Source of the DNA: Natronorubrum thiooxidans
Lineage (GTDB): Archaea; Halobacteriota; Halobacteria; Halobacteriales; Natrialbaceae
Reading direction: 5' to 3'
Assembly (NCBI RefSeq): GCF_900156475.1
Contig: NZ_FTNR01000001.1
Coordinates: 62,001-126,000, forward strand
DNA: 64,000 nucleotides
This document shows, piece by piece, positions 30,019-35,813 of the stretch (position 1 is the stretch's first letter; the number at the start of each line of letters is the position of its first letter). A model generated the notes under the pieces. It was not told where the DNA came from and made no database searches. It was given only the letters and a program-made list of their open reading frames with translations. Position numbers and translations under genes: made by a program.

Positions 30019-30050
30019 AACGGTTCGGTCGACGGCGCCCCATCACAATG

Positions 30051-30058
30051 TTTTTATT
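30051..30058 (+). promoter_or_regulatory. Box A of the thrS transcript
   Basis: tttttatt is the only good TATA element upstream of thrS. It lies 26-33 bases before the ATG at 30084, so the transcript probably begins at or next to that ATG and runs on ~150 bases to thrS at 30234. No TATA is seen 25-30 bases before thrS itself. Confidence 0.65.
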
Positions 30059-30083
30059 CCGCTCGAGACTACGCATAGCCACG

Positions 30084-30125
30084 ATGGTAGGTGTCCGCTT
30101 TACAGGGGCTTTCGCCCGTTTTTAA
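30084..30125 (+). CDS. Possible leaderless 13-codon upstream ORF in the thrS leader
   Basis: ATG GTA GGT... TAA encodes MVGVRFTGAFARF. Its ATG coincides with the expected transcription start, so it would be read as a leaderless ORF. The single threonine is codon 7 and uses ACA, a codon haloarchaea rarely use. Translating it would open the stem-loop that covers it (30086-30137). It is short enough to be chance, so coding is only a hypothesis. Confidence 0.4.
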   Translation: MVGVRFTGAFARF

Positions 30126-30172
30126 TCTACACCTACCGCTCGCTGTGTCGACACGGGTCCACAGACGAGCGG
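30086..30172 (+). promoter_or_regulatory. Structured 5' leader of thrS
   Basis: Two hairpins abut. In the first, GGTAGGTGT (30086-30094) pairs with ACACCTACC (30129-30137) and encloses an inner GGGC-TTTC-GCCC hairpin followed by five Ts. In the second, CCGCTCG-CTGTG (30136-30147) pairs with CACAG-a-CGAGCGG (30160-30172). They share two bases (30136-30137). The second loop contains GGT, the sequence of a tRNA-Thr anticodon. Regulation of thrS by this leader is inferred from the structure. Confidence 0.6.
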
Positions 30173-30233
30173 CCAGAGCGGACGTCAAATCGGACTTCTC
30201 ACCGAAGTTCACAACCAAGCCATAGTAACAGCC

Positions 30234-32183
30234 ATGTCAGAATCAGATCCACAATCACAGGAGCAACTCGTGGTCGTACTGCCAGACGGTTCCGAACTTG
30301 AGGTCGACGCGGGATCGACGGTCGAAGACTGCGCCTACGAGATCGGTCCCGGCCTCGGCCGTGACACGGTCGCGGGCAAACTCGACGGCGAACTCGTCGC
30401 CAAAGAAGCGCCCGTCTACGACGGTGTCGACCTCGAGATCGTCACCGACCAGTCCGATGAGTACCTCCGCGTGATGCGCCACTCCGCCTCGCACTGTCTC
30501 GCCCAGGCCGTCGAACGCCACTACGACGACGTCGACCTCGCCATCGGCCCGCCGACGGACGACGGCTTCTACTACGACTTCGACAACCTCGACATCGACG
30601 AGGAAGACCTCGACGCCCTCGAGGACGAAATCGAGGCCATCATCGAGGAGGATTACGAGATCGAACGCGAGGACGTCTCGATCGAAGAGGCCGAAGACCG
30701 CCTCGCCGGTGAGCCGTACAAACTCGAGTTACTCGAGGAGTTCGCCGACGAGAACGACGAGGTCTCGTTCTACAAACAGGGCGAGTGGGAGGACCTCTGT
30801 GCCGGCCCGCACGTCGATTCGACGGGCGAGATCGGCGTCGTGGAACTGCTCGAGATCGCCGGGGCCTACTGGCGCGGCGATGAGGAAAACACGATGCAGA
30901 CGCGCATCTACGGCACGGCCTTCGAGGACGAAAGCGACCTCGAGGCCTACCTCGAGCGCAAGCAGGAAGCCGAAAAGCGCGACCACCGGAAGATCGGCAA
31001 CGAGATGAACCTGTTCTCGATTCAGGACGTCACCGGCCCCGGACTGCCGCTGTATCACCCGCCGGGGAAGACGGTACTCAAAGAACTCGAGGACTTCGTC
31101 GAGGACCTCAACAAAGACGCCGGCTACGACTACGTCGAGACGCCCCACGTCTTCAAGACGGACCTCTGGCACCGTTCTGGCCACTACGAGAACTACGCCG
31201 ACGACATGTTCATCTTCGACGTCGGCGACGACGAGTTCGGCCTGAAGCCGATGAACTGCCCCGGCCACGCCGCCATCTTCCAGGACCAGTCCTGGAGCTA
31301 CCGCGACCTCCCGATCCGCTACGCCGAAAACGGGAAGGTCTACCGCAAGGAACAGCGCGGCGAACTCTCGGGGCTCTCCCGTGTCTGGGCGTTTACGATC
31401 GACGACGGCCACCTGTTCATCCGGCCCGACCAGATCGAACGCGAAGTCGAGGAGATCATGGACATGATCACGGACGTCTTGGAGACGTTCGACCTCGAGT
31501 ACGAGATGGCCCTGGCCACCCGCCCCGAGAAGTCGGTCGGCAGCGACGAGATCTGGGAACACGCGGAAGAACAACTCGAGAACGTCCTCGAGAAGCGCAA
31601 TCTCGACTACGAGTTAGAGGAGGGCGACGGCGCGTTCTACGGCCCGAAGATCGACTTCGCGTTCGAGGACGCCATCGGCCGCTCGTGGGACGGGCCGACG
31701 GTCCAACTGGACTTCAACATGCCCGAACGGTTCGACCTCTCCTACGTGGGCGAGGACAACGACGAACACGAGCCGGTGATGATCCACCGCGCGCTCTATG
31801 GCAGCTACGAACGATTCTTCATGATGCTCATCGAGCACTACGAGGGTCGCTTCCCGCTGTGGCTCGCGCCCGAACAGCTTCGTGTGCTGCCGATCTCGGA
31901 TAACAACCTCGGCTACGCCCATCAGGTCGCAAACGAGTTCGACGAGTTCCGCGTCGAGGTCGACGACCGCGACTCGACGCTCGAGCGCAAGATCCGTGCG
32001 GCCCACGACGACCGCGTGCCCTACCAGATCATCGTCGGCGACAACGAACAAGCCGACGGCAACATCTCGGTCCGTGACCGCTTCGAGGATCAGGAGTACG
32101 ACGTCGAAATCGACGCGTTCAAGGCCCACCTCGAGGCCGAACGCGACGAGCAGCGGACGGAGCCGGACTTCTTGCAGGACTGA
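30234..32183 (+). CDS. thrS: Threonyl-tRNA synthetase
   Basis: A 649-residue class II aminoacyl-tRNA synthetase with the bacterial-type domain order: TGS domain (~10-70), editing domain with the HSASHCLAQ (HxxxH) motif near residue 83 and [10 protein letters not shown] near 190, catalytic core with MNCPGH holding the zinc Cys, motif 2 around [11 protein letters not shown], and the C-terminal anticodon-binding domain. The ATG at 30234 fits the family start and is preceded by the structured leader. A 9-bp hairpin lies 43 bases after the stop. Confidence 0.97.
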
Positions 32184-35588: not shown

Positions 35589-35626
35589 TGTATGTTCCCG
35601 CGGGCGTTTTCTGGTTCAATCCTGAC

Positions 35627-35641
35627 CGGGGCTTTGCCCCG
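35627..35641 (-). promoter_or_regulatory. Hairpin in the L15e leader
   Basis: CGGGGC (35627-35632) pairs with GCCCCG (35636-35641) around a three-base loop, about 40 bases before the L15e ATG and within the putative 5' leader. Its GGGGCTTT-GCCC core resembles the inner hairpin of the thrS leader. Regulation is only a possibility. Confidence 0.45.
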
Positions 35642-35813
35642 CGGATCACATTCCGACCTGTAGCACAATGCCGAGCAGGTGCCCGCTGACGCCCGCGACC
35701 CAGCGAGTCTGCGTGAACCTATCCAACTCTCGAGTATAAGAGCTTCGAACTCCACGAACGGCGGACTCGAGAGACATCAAACGTCGGTCGGCGTCGAAAA
35801 CTCGTGTGCTGAC

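Follow-up and report, generated by a model that had tools for sequence, protein, structure and literature searches.

The window analysed here, a stretch of 64,000 nucleotides from the genome of Natronorubrum thiooxidans, carries a gene for a bacterial-type threonyl-tRNA synthetase (thrS), and the region immediately ahead of this gene holds a promoter, a very short open reading frame and a number of RNA pairings (Table 1). The promoter consists of ATCACAATG followed by the box A TTTTTATT, and throughout the Natrialbaceae, the family to which the window genome belongs, the form CATCACAAnG-CTTTTAT is kept at the same distance upstream of the mini-ORF. The ATG of this ORF (30084-30086) lies 26 nt downstream of the box A. 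This spacing from the promoter, which is what we have to judge by on this point, suggests that transcription starts next to the ATG and that the mini-ORF would be leaderless, with its start codon at, or within a few nucleotides of, the 5' end of the transcript. An original prediction, made from the letters of this DNA, had drawn attention to the leader, and its positions for the box A, the ATG, the ORF, the ACA codon and both of its stems could all be verified in the sequence. When the leader was searched against Rfam with E values up to 5, T-box families included, no family matched. Elsewhere in the window the same database places a known element, the eL15-Euryarchaeota ribosomal protein leader, at 35608-35679 on the minus strand (41 bits).

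Table 1. Features of the thrS locus (positions in the window; S1, S2 and S3 are the pairing strands discussed in the text)
Feature	Position	Strand	Support or remark
Promoter, upstream motif and box A	30042..30058 (box A 30051-30058)	+	conserved upstream motif in Natrialbaceae
Upstream ORF, 13 codons, predicted leaderless	30084..30125	+	stop in frame in 95/95 distinct leaders (+1 frame 0/95, +2 frame 7/95)
S1, 5' strand in ORF codons 1-5	30085..30098	+	pairs with S2 (via 30085-30094) or S3 (via 30090-30098)
Putative regulatory Thr codon ACA, codon 7	30102..30104	+	in all thrS-anchored Natrialbaceae leaders and in the divergent L180
Small hairpin within the ORF (GGGC/GCCC)	30106..30117	+	noted by eye in the majority of relatives, with altered sequence
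S2, proximal partner of S1, few bases past the uORF stop	30129..30138	+	shuffle test and covariation
Second stem-loop (30136-30147 / 30160-30172), one bulged A	30136..30172	+	comparable stem in other Natrialbaceae leaders, without conservation of the loop
S3, distal partner of S1	30178..30186	+	mainly Natrialbaceae; matching changes
TTCTC, T-stretch + TC, candidate termination site	30196..30200	+	9 nt after S3
thrS, bacterial-type threonyl-tRNA synthetase	30234..32183	+	NCBIfam TIGR00418 668 bits; TGS, tRNA_SAD, tRNA-synt_2b, HGTP_anticodon

As had been predicted, the only Thr codon among the 13 codons of the ORF (MVGVRFTGAFARF followed by a stop) is an ACA. This codon had been called rare, and among 22 window genes it does account for just 6.7% of Thr codons, even though ACT is rarer still (5.1%). 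Another finding concerns the codon beside it, the Phe codon TTT at 30099-30101, which is nearly invariant in thrS leaders in spite of the fact that TTC is the preferred Phe codon (82% in window genes).

To compare this ORF among haloarchaea, leaders were drawn from named genomes (N. bangense and N. sulfidifaciens being the closest named relatives of the window genome), near relatives, pattern matches and fetches anchored on thrS. This gave a set of 95 distinct leaders of thrS, covering some seven families, and all of these leaders contain GGT(G/A)NCNN(C/T)TTTACA. The ORF in these leaders is promoter-spaced and mostly 10-18 codons long, and in every one of them the frame of the motif opens with an ATG located two or three codons ahead of it and closes with a stop 3-11 codons past the ACA. 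A stop no further than 11 codons from the ACA is found in the ORF frame in all 95 leaders, in the +1 frame in none and in the +2 frame in seven, and, even though it sits at seven different distances from the ACA, the ORF stop is in frame 0 every time. Five leaders have their start shifted upstream by a single codon, still in frame, and in two others the 5' part of the ORF has been swapped for a long unrelated stretch that runs in frame to FT..ARF-stop. A divergent leader (L180, from genome G198) reads ATG GCA GAA GTC AGC GTG ACA GGT CGG GCC CTG TGA, and thus retains the start, the ACA at codon 7, the stop and a stem (GGCAGAA/TTCTGCC), having lost the TTT and the GGTG. Retention of this ACA without its surrounding motif argues that codon 7 is probably read as a Thr codon, and rules out UUUACA as a pure RNA motif. 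Part of the sample outside Natrialbaceae was found with a pattern that includes TTTACA, and the invariance of TTTACA there is therefore biased; the thrS-anchored samples are free of such a requirement, and in these all Natrialbaceae loci carry TTTACA, and the loci outside the family show the TTTACA form, the divergent form, or no element. An ORF conserved in no relative had been named as an outcome that would refute the prediction, and we found it kept across the 95 leaders; as a whole, the comparison strongly suggests that the mini-ORF is under selection.

The leader as a whole folds more stably than 200 out of 200 dinucleotide shuffles (z -4.4). Both stems of the original prediction are present, the first one pairing GGTAGGTGT (30086-30094) with ACACCTACC (30129-30137) and the second one having 30136-30137 in common with it, and the minimum-energy fold uses, instead of the first one, a further pairing, absent from that prediction, of GGTGTCCGC (30090-30098) with GCGGACGTC in S3. 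The helix of S1 with S2, which occurs in nearly all lineages, beats shuffles with a combined p of ~1e-51 and that of S1 with S3 with a combined p of ~2e-17 (59 non-redundant leaders in both cases), values that gauge consistency rather than independent events because the leaders are mutually related. A MAFFT alignment of full leaders had S2 out of place in several rows, and register-matched blocks were therefore used to count covariation; such blocks lean towards the helix, and slid and shuffled partners served as controls. In 38 register-matched rows 90.9% of the S1:S2 cells are paired, compared to at most 52% with the partner slid, and two pairs are changed on both sides, with 8 double-change cells, a level reached by 0 of 500 shuffles. 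Most of these double changes turn U-A into C-G and come from families f3, f7 and f10, and a lack of covariation in the stems, which had been named as an outcome adverse to the prediction, was hence not what we saw for S1:S2. One leader of family f7 (from genome G107) has an insert of ~100 bases with inverted repeats between the end of the uORF and S2, and keeps S2.

For S3, matching changes on the two strands were seen as GGUGUCUGC/GCAGACACC and as GUGUCCGU/ACGGACAC, in two leaders each, and as GGUGUCUA/UGGACACC in one more. As a universal partner S3 had to be rejected, being confined to most Natrialbaceae and a few others; it was unsupported in families f7, f4 and f5 and in most f1 leaders with UAC as codon 5, and outside Natrialbaceae, apart from a few S3-bearing leaders, S1:S2 is the one pairing supported. 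Because the part of S1 that pairs with S3 overlaps the part that pairs with S2, the two helices are mutually exclusive, and most Natrialbaceae leaders accordingly hold mutually exclusive RNA structures that overlap the ORF. Two smaller elements of the original prediction fared less well. The T-run GTTTTT within the first stem is present here, but relatives mostly have CTTCTAA, no role for it is supported, and as a terminator it was discarded, being confined to the window genome. Recognition of the second hairpin in the manner of tRNA-Thr, through a GGT in its loop, finds no support, as that loop varies freely among relatives, reading ACGGGTC here and ACGGTTC or ACGGCTC in the closest ones.

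The very high nucleotide conservation right after the promoter, represented by GGTAGGTG, could in principle reflect a DNA operator for a transcription factor acting at the transcription start. However, the spacing of the half-repeats varies, both halves change together (GGCAGAA/TTCTGCC in L180, GTGACTG/CAGTCAC in L095), and such an operator leaves the constraint on the ORF frame unexplained, which makes it the least probable of all the readings weighed here.

Intergenic termination sites in H. volcanii are characterized by a T stretch with a conserved TC; some of these sites have a hairpin no more than 10 nt ahead of them, and one hairpin site, when tested, terminated 59% of transcripts (PMC7237163). 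A similar signal lies between the leader ORF and the gene, where a stem followed by a T-stretch with TC is enriched far above shuffles. Of 61 Natrialbaceae leaders, 43 have it no more than 20 nt past S3, mostly at 9-10 nt (shuffles give 0.8 leaders on average and 5 at most). Past S2, a TTCTC or TTTTC follows within 18 nt in 19 of the 25 leaders from outside core Natrialbaceae (0.5 on average and 4 at most in shuffles), compared to 1 of 22 Natrialbaceae leaders. This is a strong pattern which, having been noticed in the same leaders that were later counted, is not an independent test. The exact motif is absent after S3 in 18 of the 61 leaders, and lies ahead of S3 in just two Natrialbaceae leaders. 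With the signal placed after S3 in Natrialbaceae and after S2 in other lineages, the candidate terminator stem would be S1:S3 in the former and S1:S2 in the latter. A scan for bacterial-type terminators, which does not cover archaeal ones, gave no site.

It is also conceivable, although we consider it unlikely, that the uORF does sense Thr-tRNA and that control is exerted on translation or stability of the thrS message, with the pairings of S1 altering access to the start region or to an RNase site. In most Natrialbaceae leaders, in fact, ~25-90 nt separate S3 from the thrS start downstream of it, an SD-like AGGTG adjoins thrS in some lineages, and in some Natrialbaceae the TTCTC is found inside a small hairpin rather than in a free U-tract. 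On the other hand, most Natrialbaceae thrS starts have no SD, and, whichever of the two architectures is present, the T-stretch with TC keeps to the end of the stem. Sequestration of the thrS SD by S2, an idea prompted by the AGGTG near thrS in family f7, was rejected, as S2 shows no general pairing to the thrS ribosome-binding region in excess over shuffles (combined p 0.96).

The distribution of the leader is closely tied to that of its gene. A covariance model of the leader (R1), run on 75 Natrialbaceae genomes, matches 74 of them, 73 once and one twice (the second match being weak, E 0.04), and the 75th genome has no thrS match either. Wherever pattern and model matches could be placed, by tblastn or by coordinates, they sit ahead of thrS, the exceptions being isolated one-mismatch or weak matches (L090, L091, L325 and L326, for example), and every full-length covariance-model match that could be placed is at a ThrRS gene. 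In many other haloarchaea thrS is leaderless and the element is absent. Four genomes with two thrS genes (G110, G126, G205 and G252) have one leaderless copy and one with the leader, an arrangement reminiscent of a housekeeping gene paired with an inducible one. Genome G291 carries, besides a bacterial-type thrS, an archaeal-type ThrRS (with the PF08915 editing domain) under the same uORF leader, whose ORF reads ATG CTA GTG GGT GAG TGC TTT ACA CGC CGG GCG TAA, and this archaeal-type enzyme is not an orthologue of the thrS of the window. From its placement, then, the leader element is apparently one that tracks ThrRS function, not gene lineage.

Babski et al., in their Table 2, listed 16 uORFs in long 5'-UTRs of H. 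volcanii, including one before a tryptophan--tRNA ligase gene (HVO_A0127, 23 aa) and one before pheS (HVO_2948, 26 aa) (PMC4983044), and for this reason the regions upstream of pheS and trpS were read in 25 genomes. At 20 of the 25 pheS loci, including that of the window genome, there is an ORF with leaderless spacing and a Phe run near its end (MAPESHVSAGIDDQSDRPQSGFGFFFAR is an example, and runs such as FGFFF or FGFFFAR are seen), and in 18 pheS-leader ORFs chosen by promoter spacing alone Phe makes up 13.7% of the residues, compared to 3.3% in window genes. The pheS uORF of haloarchaea is likely to act as a Phe attenuator. As for trpS, an ORF containing Trp codons stands ahead of the gene at 10 of 11 second-copy loci (MTAALEWQWRWQIPSRADSSFAAGDAA, often with WRW or WRWRW, and in one case with a single Trp), a count in which the ORFs were selected by their Trp content and the strict promoter filter was passed by 5 of the 11 loci. 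These ORFs are enclosed by stems that covary, their strands changing together (CCGCUCUCGAG/CUCGAGAGCGG, UCUACUUC/GAAGUAGA and GCUGUCCGCUGG/CCAGCGGACAGU), and strand 1 recurs as a later copy. The main trpS copies are leaderless, and no such ORF was seen there, at 25 hisS loci or at 6 full-length leuS loci, short leuS matches that do not reach the gene start having been left out of the count; the hisS and leuS loci rule out a general leader for all synthetases. In the three cases of thrS, pheS and trpS the featured amino acid of the leader ORF is that of the downstream synthetase.

These findings bear on two further readings. A structured RNA bound by ThrRS or by tRNA, either as a tRNA-mimic operator like that of E. 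coli thrS or in a T-box-like fashion, with the ORF being incidental, would be in keeping with a conserved stem that contains a conserved internal UUUACA and with an element specific to thrS. We nonetheless hold it to be very improbable, given that the ORF frame is strongly selected and outlives loss of the RNA motif in L180, that the GGT loop is not conserved, that Rfam offers no match, that a ThrRS of an unrelated type has this same leader, and that the Phe and Trp sister leaders encode peptides with codon runs. Alternatively, the mini-ORF could be the gene of a functional micropeptide that happens to precede thrS and is no cis-acting sensor, as conservation in frame of MVGVRFTGAFARF-like peptides across families might suggest. 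Codons 4-5, however, vary (Val/Gly/Asp and Arg/Cys/Tyr/His) with the pairing kept, and both the restriction of the placeable full-length model matches to ThrRS genes and the agreement between the featured amino acid and the downstream synthetase speak against a micropeptide, which we regard as extremely improbable.

Taken together, our results point to a ribosome-mediated attenuator by which the supply of charged tRNA-Thr would set the expression of thrS, and we consider this quite probable. The idea of an attenuator with stalling at the ACA was already part of the original prediction, and is well supported by the comparison, through the frame, the invariant ACA, the exclusive pairings and the Phe and Trp sister leaders; what stood of that prediction is thus its observation of the leader and this idea, and what did not is the tRNA-mimic loop and the role of the T-run. 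A short, conserved, in-frame ORF with cognate codon or codons, as expected for a leader peptide, is indeed there. When Thr-tRNA is ample, the ribosome would reach the stop codon, vacating S1 and covering S2 or its beginning, so that the freed S1 could pair with S3 and transcription would stop at around 30196-30200. When Thr-tRNA is short, the ribosome would stall with the ACA in its A site and mask S1 (nucleotides ~1-18 of the transcript and some bases downstream, for an assumed footprint), the terminator-like stem would be blocked, and thrS would be made. Since a stalled ribosome would prevent S1:S3 and one at the stop codon would favour it, we propose that thrS is induced by starvation. In lineages that have no S3, S1:S2 itself would be the terminator-like stem, and in Natrialbaceae leader RNA that is not translated S1:S2 would form first. 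Several features count against this picture, namely the single Thr codon of most thrS leaders, the support of S3 mainly in Natrialbaceae, the shortness of the TTCTC, which in its exact form is missing from 18 of 61 Natrialbaceae leaders and in some is located inside another hairpin, and the near-invariant TTT beside the ACA, which a Thr sensor alone would not require. The pheS and second-copy trpS leaders of relatives would share this design, with Phe and Trp codons in place of the Thr codon. We find it likely, if with somewhat less assurance, that there is a haloarchaeal family of leader-peptide attenuators, in which leaderless ORFs would tune thrS, pheS and second-copy trpS to how far the cognate tRNA is charged, termination taking place at a T-stretch, and, as part of the same joint reading and with the same assurance, that this would be a putative archaeal form of ribosome-mediated transcription attenuation, with a terminator and a mode of initiation of its own.

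Leader-peptide attenuation is a textbook bacterial mechanism that needs coupled transcription and translation; ribosome-mediated examples are the thr, trp, his and pheST leaders of E. coli, and classical attenuators have runs of cognate codons. Like the E. coli attenuators, the thrS leader has an early short ORF, cognate codons, exclusive overlapping stems and then a putative terminator-like element, and the haloarchaeal pheS and trpS leaders have codon runs, as do pheL and trpL. In contrast to the bacterial systems, the haloarchaeal thrS leader ORF is leaderless by promoter spacing, most of these leaders have a single rare Thr codon, the candidate terminator is a T-stretch with TC in place of a hairpin followed by a long U-run, and the strand common to both stems is S1, located in the first codons. 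The proposed control of thrS also resembles T-box riboswitches, such as those of B. subtilis thrS and thrZ, in linking a synthetase to its tRNA via alternative leader stems; the haloarchaeal leader, however, matches no T-box model, and has a translated-looking ORF in place of a specifier loop. Leader hairpins ahead of thrS are likewise found in the E. coli thrS operator, where ThrRS represses its own synthesis through tRNA-like hairpins, but in haloarchaea the loop is not conserved, there is no conserved loop like the anticodon of tRNA-Thr, and conservation indicates that the ORF is required. The uORFs of H. volcanii, known to us by their listed lengths alone, likewise precede pheS and a tryptophan--tRNA ligase gene; thrS is absent from Table 2 of that study, which, as far as we could find, mentions neither regulatory codons nor alternative stems nor attenuation (PMC4983044).

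In the open-licence papers searched we found no description of leader-peptide attenuation for Archaea, which does not prove that none exists, and haloarchaeal leaders have been described as short, with structured control not being typical (PMC4983044). If our reading is true, archaea too would use the moving ribosome as a sensor, archaeal transcription and translation would be coupled tightly enough for attenuation, and leaderless mRNA starts could serve such a mechanism. With uORFs mapped ahead of pheS and of a trpS gene, H. volcanii is a genetic model in which these ideas would be directly testable.
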